Source of the DNA: Amphibalanus amphitrite
Lineage: Eukaryota; Arthropoda; Thecostraca; Balanomorpha; Balanidae
Direction: 5' to 3'
DNA: 64,000 nucleotides
Assembly: GCF_019059575.1 (NCBI RefSeq)
Contig: NW_024881591.1
Span: 992,001 to 1,056,000, forward strand
Shown here: positions 3,693 through 41,804 of the stretch, in pieces
Layout: every line of letters starts with the position of its first letter
How positions within the stretch are numbered: the stretch's first letter is position 1
Notes under the pieces: generated by a model
The model's database searches: none
Seen by the model: only the letters and a program-made list of their open reading frames with translations
Told to the model about the DNA's origin: nothing
Position numbers and translations under genes: made by a program

Positions 3693-4210
3693 CTGTTAAA
3701 GGAAAAGGGCCACCTTCGTGAAATATGAAGATATCGTTGTTTTTCATTTTGACATTATTATTTTTCATTTTCTTTTTAAAACTGGTGCCAGAAGTGCACA
3801 ATTCGCGAAAAAGTATTTAAAAATATTTAACATATTGGTACTATGTTGATACTCTCTACGGCACCTACTGTATGATGGCATAGCGATGACGTCACACTCA
3901 AGCCAATCAGCGTTCAGAAGACAGACTCGTCGGATTGTGTCAGAAAAGCTGATTGGTTAAAGCTGAGCTGGTTGGAGCTGATTGGTAAAAAACCAAAGCC
4001 TCGCCGCGGGTGGCTGTATTGTCGGATAAGAACGCATTCCTGGGATAAGGACGCATTCCCGGGGTATTTTCTTTTAAAATTACCGATAACTACGAATGGA
4101 GGCCGAAATCGGCCGTAAGGAGGAAGACAGATAGGTTTTCGGACACGGGCTACAAGATGGCTATCTCAGTTTCAATCCCCATGTTAAAGGTGGCCCTTTT
4201 CCTTTAACAG
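3693..4210. mobile_element. Non-autonomous DNA transposon (MITE) with 24-bp perfect terminal inverted repeats
   Basis: The left end CTGTTAAAGGAAAAGGGCCA (continuing to 3716) is the exact reverse complement of the right end (4187-4210). The 518-bp interior is partly AT-rich, holds several CCAATCAG-like motifs near 3900-3985 and has no transposase. A TTAA lies inside each end (TTAA then AGGAAAAGGG), so the element may be a TTAA inserter whose flanking CTG/CAG match by chance, or the repeat may really start at CTG. The target-site duplication is therefore undecided. Confidence 0.85.
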
Positions 4211-11566: not shown

Positions 11567-11784
11567 GTACAGTCTGTCTTAAAAGTACCGCGCAAAGTGG
11601 CGGTGGATCCATCAAGCCTTACCGAAGAAAGGCCTGCTTTAATTTAAAAGTCACCGAACCAATTGACCTGAGGAATGGACGAGAATATCAATTGCTTCGA
11701 TGACTCAAATTAAGCAGGCCCTCCCTCGGTCAGGCTTGATGGATCCACCGTCACTTTGCGCGGTACTTTTAAGACAGACTGTAC
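11567..11784. repeat. Long hairpin (about 80-bp stem, about 60-nt loop)
   Basis: Left arm 11567-11647 and right arm 11707-11784 are complementary with few mismatches; the outer 50 bases are almost perfect. The hairpin sits between transposase exon 6 and its inverted partial copy, and its centre nearly coincides with the centre of that larger inverted repeat (about 11.67 kb). It could be a foldback remnant or a hairpin RNA source. A + strand frame over the left arm has no recognisable domain. Confidence 0.85.
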
Positions 11785-16805: not shown

Positions 16806-17255
16806 TTGACCCAGCAGGCGGTGGGCCTCCGGGCCACCTTACGAGCGGGGGTGGGACTTTTTTGCCTCCCCCATATCTCCGAAACTACTGGATGGATCTG
16901 CAAAATCAAACAGCGTGCTTTAGCCCTGTCTAATTTTTCGGGGGAAATCCAATTTTATTGACCTTGGGGTTACCGATGATGTCACAGGTCAGGTCAAAAA
17001 TAAAATGTTCAATAAAAATAAACTGTTCACGGGTCTTCTTGGGAATGCAATATAACATCAAGTAAAATGCATTTAATCGAAAATCAGCGATAGGGCGCCA
17101 GTTTCCTAGTGCATATATTGCTATGAGAGGTCACTGATAATACCACCTCAGGTCACAGGTCAGGTCACCAAGAGTCAAAACAATATGAACTCAATTTTAC
17201 TATGGCCATGTAAGAAAATGCCCCCCGGCCCCACTCCCCCTGCCTGGAAGGTTAA
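16806..17255. mobile_element. TTAA G-hairpin element, diverged short copy (copy D), nested in the P-like element
   Basis: Homologous to the left half of the copy at 32803-33982: CCATATCTCCGAAACTACTGG, a TTTTATTGACC stretch, CACAGGTCAGGTCA, and the same order of motifs. Its left end is degraded (TTGACCCAGCAGG instead of TTAACCCGCG) and its right end is a C-rich block followed by TTAA. It contains about seven AGGTCA/TGACCT hexamers in 450 bp. It lies in the transposase intron between exons 2 and 3, so it inserted after the P-like element arrived or travelled with it. Confidence 0.75.
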
Positions 17256-27393: not shown

Positions 27394-28591
27394 TTAACCC
27401 GCGCCATGCTGGGGGGGGGGGGGGTGTTTGAACACCCCCTTGTGGCTTTTCGCGAATATCTCAAAAACGGCGGCGCGGAGTGCCGCCGTTTTTGGTACAC
27501 CTTATCATACATCAATTCTACACATGTTGTGAAAATTTCAGACCAAGGTCATTCAAGGTCAGGTCACCAGGTCACTTGAAGTGACCTCACATCATAAAAA
27601 GTTTCAATGTCTGTCATAGCTACACCGAGTGACCGATTGCTTTGAAACTTTCAGCGATTGCTAAGAGCAATAGCATGTACAAAATGTATATCTCAGAATT
27701 TTGATATCGATGACCTAAGGTCAGGTCAATTTTGCGACCTCCCCATTATAAGTCAATGGGAGAAAATTGAAATGCGCCTCTTTTGGACGAAAGACATTAT
27801 AAACACTCCCAAACACTGAATTACAAGTGGTTTAGACACACTGAACATGAAAATGGTGTCCGTGACCCCTGTTTATGCCCTGAGGTCATCTTAGGTCACG
27901 AATGGTATCTAACAGTTTTTCACAAATAACTTTTGATAGAGACATGCTAGAGCGATGAAAACGCCTTAGATGTGTTCAGCTCGACGATACGGATCGACTG
28001 ATATGCAACATGACCATTTCCGGTCAGGTCATGACCTTGACCTGAGGTCAAATTTTCAAGTTGACCTTTCAAGGTCAAGTTATAGTTCATTCGATGCGTC
28101 TTGACAAGAGGAACACGATGCCGGTAAAAGTAAGCTCGTACAATGCTTGGGTCAAAAGTTATTGCAGAAAAACTGTTTCCGAAAAAAATCGGCTATTTTT
28201 GCAGTTTTTGCCCCCTGCAGGCAAAACCGTTGACGTTAGGTCAAATCTGAGAAAATTACTCAGAAAGGGCGTTAATAGGGCTATCGAATGCGCTTTTCCG
28301 CGGCGCTGTAGCTCTATTGGTTCCCGAGTTATGCGTTGGCTTCTTGGAAATTGTCGACATTCGACCTGGAAATCGGCGAAATTTTGCCTTCAATGACCTC
28401 TGGTGACCTGACCTTTGACCTGACCAAAAAATTGACCGAAGTGATTTCCTCATTATTTTTGACGCTCTTTCGAACGCCGCCTTCCGCGTATCGCTACGTG
28501 GCCCAGCAGCCGAGTTAGAAGGGGGGTGTTCAAACACCCCCCCCCCCAGCAGGGCGTGGAAATCCAGGACCCCCAGCAGGGCGCGGGTTAA
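27394..28591. mobile_element. TTAA G-hairpin element, copy A
   Basis: TTAA duplicates bound termini TTAACCCGCGCC(A/C)TGCTGGGGG. Each arm then carries a nested hairpin, GGGGTGTTTGAACACCCC on the left and its counterpart on the right. The right arm alone has an extra copy of CCCTGCTGGGGG offset by 27 bp. A subterminal ATATCTCAAAAACGG is present. The 1.2-kb interior has about 21 AGGTCA/TGACCT hexamers (about 0.6 expected by chance), for example around 27548-27590, 28022-28080 and 28395-28430. No transposase; the short frames inside lack domains. Confidence 0.88.
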
Positions 28592-30638
28592 GGACGAACT
28601 GGGTCTGGCCGGGCTTAATTAAAAGGACAGGCGGTGGGGTTTGAGCTTAACGGATATGATGGGATGGTGACGATAGTGTTAAAGATAGGAATGGGAAAAG
28701 ACAGGCTGCCTATGACTTCTTGCGGCCGGGGTTTGTTGCTCAGAGCGAGGTATATCAGCATTTATGTAATGGTTATGTTTATCACGACATTTATCTCCGA
28801 AGAAGCACGTCTTACTGAAGATGGGAGCAAGGTCATACTCCAGCCGGCTATTACGGTCATGAGAGGGTCATTTCTGGAGCGACGAGGTCCCATTTCAGCC
28901 CTGACGACACACGACAAACCATATAATTCCGTGACCGGTGGTGGTTCGGAGTTCCAGCACTCGTCGTCGCCCCCCCCCCGTTCAATATCGGTGCCGGCAC
29001 CCATTAACTGAAGCCGGATCACGAGTGTTCCGTCTGATGGCTGACGACCGTCTGCCCGTTATATATAACCCCTCCCCTCTGTGGGGGTGCCGGGACGGAG
29101 AGGCTGCCTCGCCGTCTCCGGCGGCATCGCCCCAGCTATTCCGGGATGACGCGCCACTGCAGAAATCGGCTCTGGTCGACGTGTTATGAATTGGCAGCTA
29201 CTGGGGATGTCGCCGACCGGCCGCGTCGCTCGTGATATGTTCAACCCCCCTACTCCCCCCCCCCCCACCGAGCAGAGCAACGACCGCAGTCAAATTGGAA
29301 TATCACCGTGTGAATATCACGTATAGTGGAGCGGGCTGATTCTGTTGGGCGCTTAAATCCAGTTAATAAAGTTTTATTTCATAGCTGTTAAGTTCTCATA
29401 TGCTATTTTTTGAACGCTTATAAACATGTGCGCATACATTTTTCTCTAATTTGTGTTCCCTTAGTGCTTATAACAGCATGAAATACCCAATTTCATTTTG
29501 GAATGTGATATGTGATACTTCGCTATCTTTCAAATAGGTTATCCCATGTCCGTGGGCAAGCGAGATATGTAATTGGGTGGCTTTTTTACACGACCTATTT
29601 TGGTTTTATGCTCCTCGGTATTTACCCTTATGAGTTATGATTATGACCATATCACTTCCAGTAACTAACAGGCACTTATGCCGCCTGACGATTATGGGTA
29701 TGCTCATAACCGTCACTATATAAAACTATTCAGCGCTTCGTGCTGGATCAATGCTGGTCAGTTTGCTTCTTAAGGACCTTCTCCTTCACCTACTGCGATT
29801 GTTCGCCGGTATGCATTGAATATAACTGATATAGCTGAATTGCCTGGCTAATGACGCCCGCTGTGCGACTGCGACCGATAGGCTGGTGGATACCGATTGG
29901 TAGCTGTTTGGGCGGCGCGGTACTTTGTTTGATGGGCTCATTTCCGTCCGCCGGTGTGGGTGCATGCTCGCGTGCCTGGCCGACTCCGCGGCCGGCCGTT
30001 GCATGTCGTTGCCAGTGAATGGTCTTCACACGTCAGTTATAACCCGGCTGGGACGGCCGTTCGCAGACTTTCGAAATCCCAGCCCGAACGAGTTGATTCG
30101 CCAGCATGTAGAACCGCTCAAATCGCTAACATGAATGAGCTTTAACAAACTGCGACCAAGCTGTCAGCGAAATGAGAAAAGAGGCATCCGTTTGACATGC
30201 TTCAGCTTTTTTAGACTGAAAACCACAATCGGAAACCGTTTAAATCCATATTCCAGTTTCCGTTTTTTGTTTGGTAGAGACTGCGGTTTGTGGGCTCGGT
30301 TTCGACACAGATTGCCCCATTGTTCTTACCTCTATAAACACAACGGGCCTGACCGTGATCGCAGTTAACCAAGGATTTTTTCGATGTAGCTCTGCAATCA
30401 CATTGTAGGACGGCATTTCCTCAATGTCGGCGGGATGTTATGCTCCTTTGTGTCTGAAAAGGCTCACCGCGCTCAGTCGTGGCCCCCAAGGTGAGCAGTA
30501 CTAAATAAATAACTAGTCAGTGTCTGCCCTCCCCTCTGGGGCTGCTCCAACCGCTCGCTGCTCTTTTAATCTCCACACACCCCATCGCATTTTTCTTTAT
30601 TCAGTTCTGTAGTTCCCTACAGCATCTCCTTCCCTACA

Positions 30639-30725
<87 letters not shown>

Positions 30726-32802
30726 GATATGCTGGTGTCCTAAAGACTCTCCTGTCTATCCCGTTCTCCTGCACAGTCTCTCGGCAGAGTCCCCGTGCTC
30801 TCTTGGTCCTCCGATGCAGGGCTGCCTGGCTGCTCCGCCTCACAAACGATCATCGTCGACCGTCGACCGACTGGCCGGTCGGCCGGCCGGCCAACAAGGA
30901 AAATCGGGGAGGCTTGCCCGCTTACTGACGCGGAAACCTCTGAACTTTTGTTGTTAAAACAGACATTAAAGCCTCAAAGTGAAGAATCTCGTAAAGCTCA
31001 ACGAAGTAAATGATAATCCTCTCATACTTTTTTGTTAAGTGAAGAACATAATTTTGCAATACAATCAAAAGTAATACGCCATCGTTCAATTGATCAGATT
31101 AATGAATGACGACCCTATCAAGTAATTATTCACTATATCAGAGAAGCGTTGCAGCACTAATTTCAGGAATATTTGGAGATTATGGACAAGATAAAGCATG
31201 TAGAATGGTGATTGATTAATGTGTTGAGCACTGAAGCATAAAAAACAAGAGCATAATACCATCTGAATTGCTGCAGTATTTTGTACCAAGCTGTTGTGCT
31301 TTTCCATCCCATTTTCCTTGTTGGCTAAAATGGCTATGCAATATAACTTATGTACATAGATTGGCGACGCTGTTGAGTATCAGGGTGGTGTGAACTGCCC
31401 ATGAAGGTACATAGAAAGCTACACAATGCTTATTTCCTCAACCGCTTAGTCATCAAACATTAACACCTTTATCAACACTTGATGTGCATTATATCTACAA
31501 TCCAAATATGTACATACATAGGTTAAAGTACCGCGATAACGACAGTCTGTTCGTTGGAGGTTGTCGTCGTGGCTGACCGCCTCCGAGGCACCGCTCGCTG
31601 CAGGCTCGCCGCGCGCCGGCGGCCTTCTGGGTCACAGCTCTGAACAATAGGACGCAGCCGTCTGCGGTGATGTCTTTGATGTGACGGAGCGGCCGGCCGG
31701 AGCGGCGACCAGCGGTGGTGCTGACTCAACTAGATTGAAAGATACACGCTGCTACAACATGAAAGCAGCGTCGTTTTGCGTTTGATGGAGGTTGAGCCGT
31801 GCGGCAGTGTTCTTTAGTAAATTGCTTGGAATTGACGTGAACAGTGAGACCGTCAAATATGAAAAATATTTTCATACATTCCTTTCTGTCCATACATTTA
31901 CGAGCTACATATAATTATGTTTCCAGTTTTGATAAAGTGTATGATGAGGTATGATGAGGTATTCGAAAGGTTGGAGTTAAATAAAGTTCAGATACTTGAC
32001 GGAACATAAAACCTTTTTAATGGCTTTCCTTTTAAATGGCAGCTTTGTATACGCTGGGAAGTCTGCTTTATAGCTATTACATAAATGGAGACCGGGTTTA
32101 ATCCCTTTGTTTTCCTGACGAGTCTACTAAAAGCGTTTGAAGTGGGCTGACCTAACCAACCATGCGCCTTACCTTCAATTAAATACTTGCAATGTTGAAT
32201 GTTCTCTGTAGATGTTTGCTCTTGAATGACGTATATCCTTATTGCAGCAGAATTAAATGCTAACCAATCGTTAAATCTATGTATTTCAACGGGGATTATG
32301 TCATGCTCATTATGCTTTTTCACCCTCAAACAGTTCGTGCACATTAGTTATCCGTAATATGATGTAATCGCTTCATGTAACAAACAATGTCGTTCTGCTT
32401 ACCTGACGAAGGAAAGTGCCAATGAGCACTAATTAAATATTCTGTATTCTTTATTTTCCAATCACTAGGCTTTTCCAGCAGAGCTTATACTGATACCGCG
32501 TGTCAGCTGCTATCACAGCCATCCCCTCCTACGGGGGAGGGGGGGGGGGGGTCGGCCCGACTGCAGTGTTTGCTGACGCGGCACGTTATTCGAGTCCGTC
32601 GGCACACGGCGCGGTCGGGCCGGCTCACGACACTCCCAGCGGACGGTGGTTCCCCATGGTTATCGCCCGCGGTGCTATAACACTCCAGGACAAGGATAAA
32701 AATATGTCGCCTTGCGAGCCGCAGTACATATTGTTACCATGTTACCTGCCTGGAAATTCAATCATCTCGCATGGTTCGTATCTTTATTATGAAATATTTT
32801 GC
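28592..32802. other. Intron segment, no gene recognised
   Basis: Contains C-runs near 28970 and 29255, a long CT microsatellite, a GC-rich patch at 31590-31720 and a G-run at 32528-32550. I saw no conserved coding segment or RNA gene. Confidence 0.35.
30642..30722 (+). repeat. (CT)n microsatellite, about 40 units
   Basis: Uninterrupted CT dinucleotides. Arg-Glu frames on the other strand are artefacts of this repeat. Confidence 0.98.
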
Positions 32803-33982
32803 TTAACCCGCGCCCTGGTGGGGTCTGTTTATAACGCGACCTGGTGGGGGGGGCTATTTTTTGCCCCCCCTCGTATCTCCGAAACTACTGGACGGATCCG
32901 CAAAATTCAAACGGCGTTCGATAGCCCTGTCAAATTTGTCGAGGGAAACCAAATTTTATTGACCTCGGGGTCACCGATGACGTCACAGGTCAGGTCAAAG
33001 ATAAAATGTTTCACCGTTCACGGGGCTTCTAGGGAAAGCGCTATAACACCGAGTAAAACGCATTTTGTCGAAAATCAGCGATAAGACGTCAGTTGTCTAG
33101 TACATATGTTGCTATTAGAGGTCACTGGTCATACCAGGTCAGGTCACCAAAGGTCACCAAGGGTCACCACATGATCCCAACTTTACTAAGGTTGTGCGAT
33201 GCATGTTTTATGGCCAGTTTTTCATTTCCAACCCAATGGTGTTGGTTATAAGACCATCAGGTACGGTTTAGGTCACTTTCTGGTGGAGGTCAGGTCAAGG
33301 TCAGGTCAAAAAAGGTCAAATTTCAAAGTTGATATTTTTGCATAAAAAGGGTATCGATTCGATGCAGCTCGTCACGGGGAGTCTAATGGTGGTCTTTGTT
33401 TTGCACTACGAGGTCTAAAATTGCTAAAAATTGAGTTTGAAAATTTGACGTCATCAATTTTGAACAGTTTTTTCGCTATAACTTCGCCAAAAAAAGAGGT
33501 ATCAATCTAAAATTTGGTATGTGGATGGAAGGCGGTAAGGACTATCACATATATTCCGGTTTTTGCGAAATTCAAAAAACTTTTTGGATTTTTTGACTAT
33601 TATATCCCAAAAATCTATTTTTTGATTTTTGGGGGTCAAAATAAAAAAAATTCAAAAATCTGAGATAGCAGTTTTGTAGCCCTGTCAATTCTACAGCTTT
33701 TATGTCCTAAACATTTTTCTGTATTTGAAAAGCTATAGGCCTGACAGCTCTTCCCGCGAAACCCTTTTTTGGGTCGAAAACGGCAGAACATGACGTCACT
33801 CTGACGTCATTTCCGGCCAACCTATCATAGCTTTTGGAAAAATTTTTGGTCACAATGTGTAAAATTGTAGTCCGGGAGGGTACTGAAAGTTTGGTGACGA
33901 TCGGCGCAGCGGTTCTGGAGATATATTGAAAAGTCTGGAGGGGGGGCAAAAAATAGCCCCCCCCCACCAGGGCGCGGGTTAA
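32803..33982. mobile_element. TTAA G-hairpin element, copy B (best preserved)
   Basis: TTAA on both sides. Termini are CCCGCGCCCTGGTGGGG with a nested hairpin: a G run, CTATTTTTTG, a C run. Here the left arm carries the extra copy of CCTGGTGGGG, offset by 26 bp; the right arm lacks it. Subterminal ATCTCCGAAACTACTGG (left) and ATATCTCCAGAACCGC (right, outward reading) are present. About 12 AGGTCA hexamers cluster at 32985-33330, including TCAAGGTCA. It is homologous in its left half to copy D at 16806-17255. No transposase. Confidence 0.9.
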
Positions 33983-34794
33983 TTATTGATATTGATAAGT
34001 TAGATAAAATATTTCATCCTTAATGAGATATTTGTATGTAACCACCAGTAATCTTGTTGATGCGATGCAGCTCTGTTATAACTCCATCACATGGTCCCAT
34101 TAAAGCTTCATCACATAATTTGCGGCGATCCCATCTGCGCGCCCACGTCTTTCGTCGGCCCCGCTGCCACCCGCAGAGCTTCGGGAGCGCCCGCACAGTT
34201 TCGGCAACGGCCGGCCGCAGCGACCTAATTAAACGCGCCCGCCCTGCCGGCCTTTTTATTGCGTGTGTTTGTGAGCATGTGCCTCGGATGTTGATTGTGA
34301 CTGTAACATTGGCTTTGTTGGAGCGCGCTGACGCCTGGGATGCGGCCGCTCTTGTGTCACAGTGAGTTAGTGGGTTGTGCCTGACAATATGAACAGGTGA
34401 GTGACAGGTCTGGCACATATGCACTAGTGTAAGCCTGTTCGGGATTAACAGTTCAAGCCTGTTGGTGATTTGTTAATGCTATCATGGCACTTCACTTCAC
34501 ATTGAATAATATTTTACGGTTATTTTACTAATTGCACAACTTTTTTTGTTTCTTCATACCCGACCAATCTTCAAGATACAAGCGGCACGTCGACGCTCCT
34601 CCTCCTCTCTTTCCCTCCTCCTCTGCTTGTTTCTCGCCCTGGATCACGGCCGAGCTACACTGCGGGCCTTTCCACACGCCCGCAGACCACGTGACGGCGT
34701 GTTGCGACAGCGGCGTCGATCACGTGGGCCGCGGGCATAGAAAGAAGGTCTTTTCCCAACGTGCCGCCCGGCTGCATGGTCAGAGGAGAGAGGA

Positions 34795-34837
<43 letters not shown>

Positions 34838-35952
34838 AGCGAGAGAGGAGTGTGAGCGATTGTTTTGTTCCCCGGATCACCACACAGCTGTCAGGTGTGT
34901 CACAATCGGTCAGGTCTGTCTGTGTGTCTGTCTGTCTGTATAGGTGTATTTCTGTCTGTCTATCTGTCACTGCTTCTGACGCGGCTGTTACCTATAGTCG
35001 CCACGGGATTCAGGGACCTTGGGCCACTTATTTCTGGGAATGACTGCTGTGTATAGCGGTGAGGCGAGTCAATGGTTACTGTCCGTCTCTTCTGGAGCGT
35101 AATAATTGTACATGCAATGCCAACTTCTCTAATAATTCATTCATCACATTGCTAAATATGGGTGCAAAACTTTAATGAAGCAGTTTTGTACCTCTAGATA
35201 GTTGGAAAGTTCATGTTTTCGACATGAGCATTGAGCAATGTCCCTGTTGAACCAATACTGATTGAGAGGTTGGGTCTACATACGGTCATTCATAACCACT
35301 CCGTTTCCAGCGAGTTTCTTCAATGCAGTTGTTGGATGAATGAGATAAGGCGCCTGGGTGGTCATGGGATTTAATGTATGCAAAAGATGCTTGTTGGATA
35401 GTGAAAATTCATTGGTCTATTAGCCTGTTTTAGCTTGGCATCATGCTGTGAGGCATGCAAGAGAAGAAAGCGAGTTGAACGGTACCTACCGATGCGACAT
35501 GAGCACTGACACGTTACGGACAGAACTGCACCGATCCTGTGTCACAGCACTTCACCCCGATCCCGTCCACGGCTCTATAGCAGTGCCGAACAAGGCTCTC
35601 CCTGTCCCCGACCTGCCCTCGCCGGGCTCCTGCCGCGCCCTCGGCCAGTATCGATTGGTGCCGTTTGGTGGTCTAGTTCGTACCACTTGGGTGGACCTGG
35701 TGACCTCTGTGGTCAGGTGGCCATCGGCCATCCCTGTCTCACTCCGACGTCGCTCAGACTCATAAATGTCTCCCAGCAAGTTTATCTATACAGTTATCGA
35801 ATAAAATGATGGTGGTATCTGCCCGTCTCCATGAAATCATTTTCGTATGATCCCAGTTGTTCTTGACCATTTTGGTAGGTATTCATGTTATATAAAATAT
35901 TACGTAATGATGTAACATCTAAAACATCTCTTTAATGACGGATTGTGTAACA
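33983..35952. other. Intron segment, no gene recognised
   Basis: Contains an AG microsatellite (34799-34834), a CTGT-rich stretch (34915-34968) and otherwise mixed-composition DNA with no supported gene. Confidence 0.35.
34799..34834 (+). repeat. (AG)n microsatellite
   Basis: Uninterrupted AG run of about 18 units, followed by GGGGAGCGAGAGAGG. Confidence 0.96.
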
Positions 35953-36875
35953 TTAACCCTCGCCCGCACATGGGGGGGGGGGTGGTTGCCACCCCCCCCC
36001 CCCCAGGCAGTCTTTCTGCTCTGCACTCAACATTTTTAGAGCTAGAAGGCTGATTTTTCGTATAGCTGCTCGTCTATCCTTTCTTGATGTTCACTGAAAA
36101 TTTCAAGTTTCTGTGATTTTTGGTTTAGGAGATATGACCTTGTTTTTCAGGTCATGTCATGACCCAAATGGCCAATTCTCAACATCTTGCGTTTGCCATG
36201 GGCCTTGAAAGCTTTTGACACCCTGATTTCGGCCTTTTTTGCCAGTCTTACCTCCCACCTATCATGGAACATGTTGTTCGACGATGTACAGGGGTCAAGG
36301 TCAGGGTCAAGGTCAACCTAGGTCATCTAAGATAATTGCGTTTTAGGCAAGCTGAATTTACTTTTTGTGAATTTTTTTGACTGCATTTTTGGTAAAAGCT
36401 TCTCAGATCATGATTTCATGTGATATGGAACCAAAAACAATCGGTGCACACATCAATATACACACAGACACACACAGACATACAAACACATATAATTGAC
36501 CTTGACCTAACTTGACCTGAAATGACCTCAGCAGCAAAATTCTGGTCGGATAGTGTGACAAAGAGGTTCTAGCTGGCTTGGCACCAGAAAACAGCATCGT
36601 CATCGGTATTTGATAAGCAGCGCACTTGATATCCAACGGTGACCCAAAACAGCAACATTTTTTAGTTTGACCTGACCTGGAAGGTCAATGACTGACCTGA
36701 GAAGGTAAAACTGGGTATCATTGGATTCGTCTCTTCCCAAAGAATCTTTTTGGTCTTTACTGCTAAGCTCTATCTCCAACAGGAACGAAATGCCGCGGGG
36801 GGGGGGGGGGTGGCAACCACCCCCCCCCCATGTGCGTTCTAGGATGGGAAAATGGCATGTGCGGGCGAGGGTTAA
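35953..36875. mobile_element. TTAA G-hairpin element, copy C
   Basis: TTAA on both sides. Termini are CCCTCGCCCGCACATGGGGG with a nested hairpin whose stem is a G run plus TGG and whose loop is TTG. The right arm carries an extra CGCACATG offset by 27 bp; the left does not. It contains AGGAGATATGACC, the inverse of the shared ATATCTCC motif, and about 13 AGGTCA/TGACCT hexamers in 0.92 kb, densest at 36290-36330, 36498-36530 and 36665-36705. The interior is unrelated by eye to copies A and B, so the architecture is shared more than the sequence. Confidence 0.87.
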
Positions 36876-39094: not shown

Positions 39095-41804
39095 CATTGT
39101 GGGATCGAACTTGAGAGAGTATGTATGTTAAGCCTTTCGTTTTCCCTCATTATTCACTAAATGCGACTGAAGGGCAGATGTTGCAGTCTGCTATGTCGAC
39201 CACTTGGCTGTCTGACTAGACGTCGAGACAATTCTATCCAGGACCGTGGTGCTGCCGCAGCCAATTTTCAGCTCTTTTCCAAATCTGAGCTGCGGCTTTA
39301 GCCCACTTCAGCCGGGCTGCGCCCGCGGCGCCGAGTTTGGCTGGAAGTTTGATGGGAGTTTATTGAGGCTAAACCTGTTCGGTATGTTTATACTCAATAA
39401 ACAGTGTCAGCGAGGTATGCGCCGTTAATTATAAAGCCTAGTCGACGTTAATCTATGGCATGGTGTTAGACGATCACAGGATCAGCACTTAATGACTACG
39501 TCAACTCCTATCGCCAGCCAGACGTGTAGCTATACCAGCCAATGACAGCGCAAATCAGTTACCTACTGAAAGACTTGCCCGTGTGTGTTACTTCAAAGGA
39601 CGGGTGGTGCTTGGCAGCGTTCTACCGGTGTTCGGGGTCATTGACATAACTGCACGTAATTAGCCGGCCTCTGTGCCTGCGCTTCTGTTTTCCCTACCTC
39701 ATCCATCCGCTCCTGCCCTCTATCCCTCCCTCCTTCAGGCGCCCCCTCTTCCTCACGGGTCTCAGTCGTGACAGCATGCGGCGCGGCGGGTAGATGTTAT
39801 CGCACGGCCGGCCGGCCCTCCACAGAGGCAGCCGTGCCGCTGCCACTGCTGCCGGGATCCCCTCCCCTCCCCTCCACTACTGGCGGGGAGGGGTGGGGAT
39901 CCCCGCTGGGTGCCGGGAAGAGACCCGCAGGACGGCGGCGTGGACTGTAGGCTCATGGGTTCATTGGGGAGGTCCGTGGGGCTCCGCCGAGCCATTGCGC
40001 GCTGCGTTTTACGTGAGCCCCATCAGCGGTCCTGCGACTGTCTCGATCCTTCTGTGGACCTGGGCTGGGTCTGTCCGGTCTCCCCGGTCTATGTTTCTCT
40101 CCAAATGCCGGTTTGGCCTCACTACTCCTCCCTTCCGTGCTGGTGAGCTCTGTAATCGCGTGCCTCGCGGAGCACATGTTCCCTGCACCGGGGCCAGCTG
40201 CCCGACCGCAGTCAGCCAAGGTCGTCTGCCGATCGCCACCAGCTCCAAAGATAACTCCGCTAACTGCGCTAACAGCACTCAATTTCGCACTCCAACGACA
40301 GCTCAACTCCAAAGAAAACTGCGCTGCAATTAATCTTTATCTGCTTCGTTTCACATTATTATCCCGTCACTACCTAAGGAGTCGTTTTTCTTGGGTGAGG
40401 AACATGGGCTCACAACCTTGAAGTTATCCTCGCAATCACATTGTTTTTTTAGGTTTCCCATGTAATGGGCTAATGGTTGGTGGATGTTCTGGTAATATGG
40501 GAATAGTGTGAGATGCCCTGAATTTATGAGCGCTGATGCTATTCGTCCACTTTCTTACGTTCGATTGTCGGAGCAGTTAGGTAAATTATATTTGCTTTTA
40601 TTACTGGAGCGCTTTTTACTGCCGCCAACTAACAGTGAGGTTATGTCAAGACACACCAAGTTATTGGTAAGAGAGCGATTTCAATGGTGCGGTTACATTG
40701 ACGCAATATATTGGGCTGCTCTGAAAACCACACCAATCCTCCCAATTACCCTCACGGCATAGTTTACAGCACTCGAACCTGGCATTCGCCGTCACCGAAC
40801 CGGGCTGTAAAAAGCCGATGTTTTACTGCAGTAACCCAGTCGGAGTTTTAGCTCGGTAAAACAGCCGTCACAGGCAGTCGAGGCGGAGGGTCGCCTTTCG
40901 TGAGTCTATGGCGGACGGTTTGGTGAGCCTCCAATCAACATGGTAGGTCACAACGGCAGCTGAATGGCACAGGCCACGGTTTCGCTATTATAGGATACAA
41001 GCCCGTGGCTAAGGTCATGCATAGGTCATACATAAAACTTCGATCACAAATGTCATAGAGGTCACTGGGTCGGATACCTAGTTCTTATAGGTCCTCCACC
41101 TTTGGGTTCAAGGTCGCTTGTCAGCGCGACCTCACAGCGCGAGCTCACACGGATATGTTGGTAACAACCAGTTTGGCGACACAAGTCAGTTTTTATCGAT
41201 GCCTTTTCAGAAAACCACTCGTTCAATATTGTTGGAAGACCTTTCTCATTTCTTTTTTTCAACTGTTTTTGTAGAACTCGTAAATCGTATTTATCCCAAC
41301 AGTGATGAAATTGGCATCAAATTAATGTGATACCTACTGATCGCGTTTTAATGATGCTGCGAAATCATATTGGCTCGTCAGCTATTTTTGGCAATATTTC
41401 ACGTTCGAAGCATAATTCTTGTCGTCCCTGTTCGTTAAGTTTCCATGCTCATTAAACACCTCATCTATATTTAACCAGATCATGTATCACTTGTTATACC
41501 CACCAAAAAACGTTTCGTCATTAAGTTATTTTTAGCATAACTCTGACCGCCGCACTCTCATCAAAGTATCCACACCGTTAGGCAATGACATTGATCACTA
41601 AACTAAGCAAGACTGAATTACAGGAGCTTCCTCCCTTCCGAGCCCAGTCCCCTCTCTCCATGTGACGCCCTCTCTCCCCTCTGCCTGTCTGCCCCTCTGC
41701 TCTACCCGTGGCGTCGGCCGGATCGATTACAGATTTACCGCCCGCGTCCTAATCGGCACAGGGGTAGTGCGTTTATTGTCAGCCGCCGGCGACGCGCGGA
41801 CAAT
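39095..41804. other. Intron segment, no gene recognised
   Basis: GC-rich between about 39760 and 40260, with an inverted GGGGAGGGGT/CCCCTCCCC pair around 39855-39905. AT-richer afterwards. No supported gene. Confidence 0.35.

Follow-up and report, generated by a model that had tools for sequence, protein, structure and literature searches.

We examined a 64,000-nucleotide (nt) stretch of the genome of the barnacle Amphibalanus amphitrite (contig NW_024881591.1, positions 992,001 to 1,056,000 of the forward strand; hereafter, the window), which holds three elements, A, B, and C, that we read as gene-less members of the piggyBac group of transposons. All three are intact and have TTAA at both ends, exactly at the coordinates that an earlier note on this DNA had given (Table 1). 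Both ends of each element carry inverted tips, TTAACCCKCGCC, and a block consisting of a G run, a short core, and a C run.

Table 1 Elements of the window and the autonomous elements for which both ends were found.
Feature	Position	Strand	Size	Parts and remarks
Element A	27394..28591	+	1198 bp	Non-autonomous; TGCTGG family; left end short, right end long
A, short end	27394..27439	+		TTAA 27394-27397; 13-nt tip 27398-27410; G run 27411-27424; core TGTTTGAACA 27425-27434; C run 27435-27439
A, AGGTCA stretch	27550..28430			Holds the listed repeats with AGGTCA/TGACCT
A, long end	28521..28591	-		TTAA 28588-28591; tip 28575-28587; inner motif copy 28548-28553; G run 28537-28547; core 28527-28536; C run 28521-28526; direct repeat 27 apart
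Element B	32803..33982	-	1180 bp	Non-autonomous; TGGTGG family; left end long, right end short
B, long end	32803..32870	+		TTAA 32803-32806; tip 32807-32819; inner motif 32840-32845; G run 32846-32853; core CTATTTTTTG 32854-32863; C run 32864-32870
B, short end	33940..33982	-		TTAA 33979-33982; tip 33966-33978; G run 33957-33965; core 33947-33956; C run 33940-33946
Element C	35953..36875	+	923 bp	Non-autonomous; GCACAT family; left end short, right end long
C, short end	35953..36004	+		TTAA 35953-35956; 15-nt tip 35957-35971; G run 35972-35982; core TGGTTGCCA 35983-35991; C run 35992-36004
C, long end	36797..36875	-		TTAA 36872-36875; tip 36857-36871; inner motif 36830-36835; G run 36820-36829; core 36811-36819; C run 36797-36810
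Decayed fourth copy	16847..17205	-		Related to B (80% over 361 bp); holds an AGGTCA cluster
Autonomous element, C527	290214-294184		3971 bp	Left end short, right end long; frame of 674 amino acids (aa), 291546-293567
Autonomous element, C33	447032-451754		4723 bp	Left long end TTAACCCGCGCCCTGGTG, right end short; 666-aa frame on the minus strand

At up to two mismatches, TTAACCCKCGCCC had six matches in the window, and all of them were element ends (five exact; the left end of A, CCCGCGCCA, with one mismatch). Since six matches were also reached in 3 of 100 shuffled windows, the genome-wide count is the better test. The exact pattern occurred 49,273 times (24,583 + 24,690) in the 807.55-Mb genome, and the reversed pattern used as a control 22 times (14 + 8). 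The tip followed by N6-GGGG occurred 19,516 times (9,764 + 9,752), and its reversed pattern never (0 + 0). With two tips per copy and a mean length of 1158 bp in 22 copies, a rough estimate is that such elements make up 3.5% of the genome. Short, gene-less, present in high copy number, and bounded by terminal inverted repeats, A, B, and C have the features of miniature inverted-repeat transposable elements (MITEs).

We paired the tips at 20 loci of contig C1 together with the window and obtained 17 complete elements, leaving 18 tips unpaired; TTAA at both sides of these 17 was built into the search. One short and one long end were found in 17/17. In the window elements, the short end passes directly into the G run, and the long end has 26–27 extra nt with a second copy of the motif. 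The earlier note had proposed that the two ends of a copy pair with each other; they are indeed inverted repeats, but they are not alike. In 277,114 bases, 74 tips had a G-run/core/C-run block behind them. Their G run began 13–20 nt from the tip in 39 cases and 36–59 nt in 35, with none in between. The shift from short to long end was measured in 25 elements, namely the 17 pairs and eight added by eye, two of which are autonomous. It was 27 nt in 15 of the 23 elements that could be parsed, 26 nt in four, 28 nt in one, 30 nt in two, and 23 nt in one. Both 30-nt cases carry a C inside the G run, and the 23-nt case (L009) joins different cores and may be mispaired. Ten extra stretches, picked for motifs unseen so far, gave five more pairs; the other five were cut, interrupted, or unpaired. 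The shift was 27 nt by script in L044 and L049, 28 nt from the printed ends in L043, 27 nt by motif position only in L042, whose inner block has no clean G run, and 34 nt in L047, whose long end is irregular.

The six letters before the G run of the long end matched the element's own tip motif at 4.58 of 6 positions versus 2.07 for other families, and none of 5000 permutations was as high. This value is for 12 merged families; A had been counted apart from its own family and two close types had been split, and therefore 15 types were merged to 12. With the 15 unmerged types the outcome was the same (4.53 versus 2.07). A, B, and C belong to different families that have terminal homology and layout in common. 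The proposal of an end architecture kept while the sequence differs is supported.

The block had been described as a hairpin whose pairing is kept in each copy. Mirror positions of the core pair at 4/5 in A and 3/4 in C, and only at positions 1 and 3 of 5 in B (CTATTTTTTG), so this description is weak for B. We tested covariation with the cores of all 74 tips (45 distinct cores), which replaced a version with 31 cores, 13 of them by-eye additions. Watson-Crick pairs at mirror pairs 1–3 made up 0.80, 0.58, and 0.58, versus 0.44, 0.28, and 0.27 when the halves were reshuffled, and 0 of 5000 shuffles was as good at each. When similar cores were collapsed to 33, the values were 0.82, 0.55, and 0.67, with 0, 3, and 0 of 5000 shuffles as good. 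Mirror pair 4 was weak (164/5000; 208/5000 after collapsing). The symmetry of the core is thus real and lies outside the homopolymers, yet it is imperfect. The window has 18 G or C runs of at least 8, 10 of them outside the three elements, a density that could invite chance pairing of G and C homopolymers. This explanation, which the earlier note had named as a possible refutation, is hardly credible and was rejected by the covariation test, because the covarying positions belong to the core and not to the homopolymers, and pairs 2 and 3 show all four Watson-Crick types; the count of tips with N6-GGGG against none for the reversed pattern also speaks against it.

Another possibility is that the G/C blocks are extruded as hairpins or cruciforms, or act as G-quadruplex or triplex signals, and that the foldback shape is what is recognised. 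G or C runs of 8–14 lie within the window element ends, and these six ends, folded as single DNA strands, were better than most shuffles (z -1.6 to -3.4; B weakest, with 11 of 200 shuffles as good at each B end). However, the known palindromes of piggyBac and piggyBat are read as bent duplex by a dimer of the C-terminal zinc domain (PMC7351741, PMC11707139). In 14 of 23 copies, moreover, the two ends share the very same core letters, a match that recognition by shape alone would not require, and the core of B hardly pairs. We therefore consider working hairpins improbable. The block is best read as a putative protein-binding dyad in duplex DNA, and the idea of structure evolving together, and not sequence, is probably better expressed as dyad symmetry for a dimeric zinc domain on duplex DNA, although mirror pairing of the core does covary across types.

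The PF13843 profile matched at least 116 places in the genome. We opened eight of these places and then two more contigs. Elements with the short/long G-run end design were found at two of the eight places, C33 and C527 (Table 1), and two further places, C257 and C431, scored the same as C33. The E-values of C33 and C527 to PF13843 were 1e-59 and 2.4e-69, respectively, and the best solved relative of both was the Trichoplusia ni piggyBac transposase (6x67; 1.3e-56 and 2.2e-78, respectively). Both frames have a DDE_Tnp_1_7 domain, as expected of piggyBac, with Asp residues that align with D268, D346, and D447 of 6x67 as read from the printed alignments. The alignments reach the last Cys of 6x67, and both proteins are predicted to carry the piggyBac kind of C-terminal cross-brace zinc domain. 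The two proteins are 37% identical, and each is 21–26% identical to six other frames. In the two autonomous elements whose ends were both located, the gene has the short end on its 5′ side and the long end on its 3′ side; the left end (LE) of piggyBac is likewise its 5′ end. A piggyBac-type transposase sharing these ends, for which the earlier note had suggested a search, does exist. At C702, a 683-aa frame has a short end on its 5′ side, at 39481, but no second end was found, and at C778 the gene could not be linked to any end. The transposases of C33 and C527 had no tblastn match in A, B, C, or elsewhere in the window at E 1.

Four of the other loci (L029, L030, L031, and L033) form a second piggyBac group, for which the family search gave runs of places with equal or near-equal scores. 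TTAACCCATTA tips flank the gene on both sides at L029, L031, and L033, and one such tip is present at L030. L029 and L030, the two frames tested among the six, matched piggyBat better than piggyBac, and neither had a G-run block inside.

A was colinear with C33 on both flanks: the match at the long end covered 631 bp at 67% identity, and the one near the short end 213 bp at 71%. B matched, at 77% over 710 bp, the part of C702 that separates the frame from its short end, and C matched C527 in the terminal 127 bp only (71%). Based on these separate matches, A, B, and C lean toward three different transposase lineages, A most firmly. The CGTTGG type had two matches to the stretch of C702 that B matched, one of 467 bp at 91% and one of 606 bp at 82%, and the match ends about 155 bp short of the long end of this MITE. 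These alignments suggest that the CGTTGG type is an internal-deletion derivative, and its descent from C702 is likely. For several pairs of types, the one printed match spans only the terminal 60–200 bp at about 70–80% identity, as might be seen if the three types were unrelated TTAA elements, for example of the Kolobok type, that had converged on CCC tips and G/C runs. Such convergence, with which the earlier note would have been refuted, is very unlikely in view of the terminal homology itself, the common short/long layout, the common AGGTCA arrays described below, and the autonomous relatives, which encode PF13843 transposases (the partner found was of the piggyBac type, and no search for Kolobok transposases was made).

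For 22 elements, we joined the two flanks, compared the result with the genomic sequence retrieved, and inspected three alignments from two of these elements. The joined flanks of L028 matched two element-free paralogues over the full 204 nt (96.6% and 94.2%), and those of L017 matched a copy of an element over 197 of 204 nt at 97.0% across the joint. In both cases the joint consisted of four bases with no extra ones. Insertion at TTAA with TTAA on both sides, as in piggyBac, was seen at both ends of A, B, and C and in the shared-TTAA junctions described next; the element-free sites, although without extra bases, read CCAA and TTGA.

Strict head-to-head junctions, in which facing tips meet on one TTAA (GGGTTAACCC), numbered 661 genome-wide. 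This is 3.5 times the 189 expected (M^2/4T) for 49,273 tips spread evenly over about 3.2 million TTAA sites, a total obtained from a density of 3.98 per kb over 222.5 kb. Facing tips 1–30 bp apart numbered 73, versus 79 predicted from the junction count at an equal rate per TTAA; some of the 73 are visibly a repeated composite, so there are fewer independent events. The terminal TTAA thus does not seem favoured over nearby ones, and self-targeting of it was tentatively dismissed, regional clustering being enough, although five junctions in 4 of the 10 rare-motif loci (L047, L048, L050, and L051) run counter to this. Single-TTAA junctions were seen at L009 6077; L026 1856 and 3049; L037 1399; L047 791; L048 17; L050 295 and 1679; and L051 19, and possibly at L009 1399, where the left side is doubtful. 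At L037+L034 (C527:289270-294184), a gene-less copy of 948 bp and the autonomous copy face each other across one TTAA, forming a composite with the long ends outermost. L014 2240-2262 and L022 1097-1119 have a near-identical spacer of about 18–21 bp between different element pairs, as if a composite had moved or been copied.

Taken together, A, B, and C are best read as MITE-type piggyBac elements that would be moved in trans by a piggyBac-type transposase, which would read their ends with separate domains and form a two-dimer synapse; we put the probability of this reading at about 0.92. What the data show are the layout, its statistics, the autonomous partners, the transposase homology, and the TTAA junctions. 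As for the remaining steps, we infer that the transposase would be supplied in trans by autonomous relatives, that its core DNA-binding domain would bind the family-specific tip motif, and that a dimer of its C-terminal zinc domain would bind the dyad-symmetric G-run/core/C-run block. The second motif, about 27 bp inward on the long end, would let a second transposase dimer sit in phase, and a short and a long end together would give a productive synapse, followed by excision at TTAA and rejoining at another TTAA. The tip motif and core may vary by family because each lineage's transposase would read its own pair.

Several observations weigh against this reading. No autonomous element with the exact motif and core of A, B, or C was found in the loci opened, and the links consist of diverged homology; at C702, where the other end of the frame was not found, the short end and the frame would belong to one element by position. 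The core is the same at both ends in only the 14 of 23 elements mentioned above and differs in both autonomous elements, and in C527 the tip motifs of the two ends differ as well. L014 and L018 (2/25) could not be parsed, one shift was 23 nt, and L047 read 34 nt. The core of B is barely palindromic and nearly asymmetric. Copies differ in how long their G and C arms are, and these arms do not resemble the repeat of T. ni piggyBac. In the element-free paralogues, the four letters at the joint are CCAA and TTGA, and the L028 alignments have a 2-nt gap 5–9 nt past it. Finally, C begins with CCCT, but A and B begin with CCCG and so lack the fourth letter of the CC[C/T]T hallmark (PMC2872659); the long end of the autonomous C33 also begins with CCCG.

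AGGTCA/TGACCT occurred 21 times in A, 13 times in B, and 13 times in C, which is 47 of the 99 in the window. In the non-coding DNA of 11 representatives, which are partly dependent owing to two close pairs (94% and 90%), AGGTCA totalled 170, the top value among the listed 6-mers common to all or nearly all of them (next, 78), and each representative had 3–24 versus 0.17–0.75 expected from a first-order Markov model. Inside 21 elements the density was 16.6 per kb. In the 198 kb outside them it was 2.1 per kb, and clusters accounted for 254 of 399 sites there, many beside further tips or blocks. The hexamer was rare in the transposase frames (1 in 1997 bp and 0 in 2021 bp), occurred at 0–1.5 per kb in five other piggyBac loci, and numbered 32 and 13 in the non-coding parts of C33 and C527, respectively. 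When it was masked before alignment, 118 of 205 (58%) were kept between diverged families, versus 656 of 1892 (35%) for 40 control hexamers; the sequences are not independent, and two of the nine pairs gave 0 of 0 and 0 of 10. Ordinary BLAST alignments gave 239 of 328 kept versus 25% of other hexamers, with repeats biasing the alignment and pairs counted both ways. The masked figure, being weaker, is the one to use.

The two-dimer model does not explain these arrays. AGGTCA is the nuclear-receptor half-site, and nuclear-receptor direct repeats follow the DR1–DR5 spacing rule. The commonest start-to-start distance here was 5 (29 same-strand neighbours in 9 representatives), which is an overlap and not a DR1–DR5 spacing, and this weakens the nuclear-receptor reading. 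Because the hexamer persists in copies that have no gene, we would guess at a role in mobilisation sooner than at one in expression. As a tentative idea, with the odds against it, the arrays may be a selected cis-element of the whole group, bound by a host protein or the transposase and aiding the spread of about 25,000 copies, while in parallel the dozen or more families may form a natural code of tip motif and dyad core for piggyBac transposase specificity. If so, a few hundred thousand transposon-borne hexamers, by extrapolation, would form a mobile receptor-binding landscape. Common descent with slippage of a GGTCA unit, matching the spacing of 5, is a plain alternative. Apart from these elements, the window has two more TTAA-bounded inverted-repeat segments, 3696-4207 and 11579-11772, with unrelated tips (AGGAAAAGGGCC and AAGTACCGCGCA, respectively).

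The earlier note knew of no named family with such nested hairpins; the end architecture is in fact that of piggyBac, and autonomous elements with these ends encode piggyBac-type transposases. A search of titles and abstract openings found no paper on G-run piggyBac ends or on AGGTCA arrays in them. In T. ni piggyBac (PDB 6x67 and 6x68), the ends are LE35 and RE63; in the right end (RE), a motif is duplicated and 17 bp are inserted. Both ends contain a palindromic internal repeat of 19 bp, asymmetrically placed, to which a dimer of the C-terminal domain binds, and the core domain contacts bp 7–16; adding 5 bp to the RE or randomising its second motif about halved transposition (PMC7351741). 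The barnacle elements resemble this system in TTAA, a motif duplicated at one end, a palindromic internal repeat at both ends, asymmetric ends with the short one 5′ of the gene, and a DDD transposase with a predicted C-terminal zinc domain, and their shift, usually 27 nt, is close to the 28 nt of piggyBac (63 - 35). They differ in having long G-run and C-run arms and many versions of core and motif, in the CCCG start of two of the three window copies, and in that the window copies lack a gene and carry AGGTCA arrays. PiggyBat of Myotis lucifugus (PDB 9c0f) also has a repeated motif and an imperfect palindrome read by the C-terminal zinc domain, but its palindrome occurs three times on the LE with no RE counterpart and is unrelated, and the zinc domain has another fold (PMC11707139). 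The coral CMITEs, piggyBac-like MITEs of Acropora, likewise form TTAA families with differing ends and common internal features, whereas their tips are CC[C/T]T, and the accessible part of that paper mentions neither G-run palindromes nor AGGTCA arrays (PMC2872659). The G/C arms and the many core versions are the new feature within the piggyBac scheme. The authors of the piggyBac structure called the LE/RE asymmetry 'puzzling' and explained it by a two-dimer model based on structures and a few end variants (PMC7351741). In the barnacle, many families in one genome hold the offset near 27 nt and change both recognition sequences, which gives independent natural support for that model; the genome is a natural test of end recognition by piggyBac transposases, and the paired tip motifs and cores are material for learning their specificity. 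The elements are ordinary in kind and unusual in the clarity with which many families show the layout rule.

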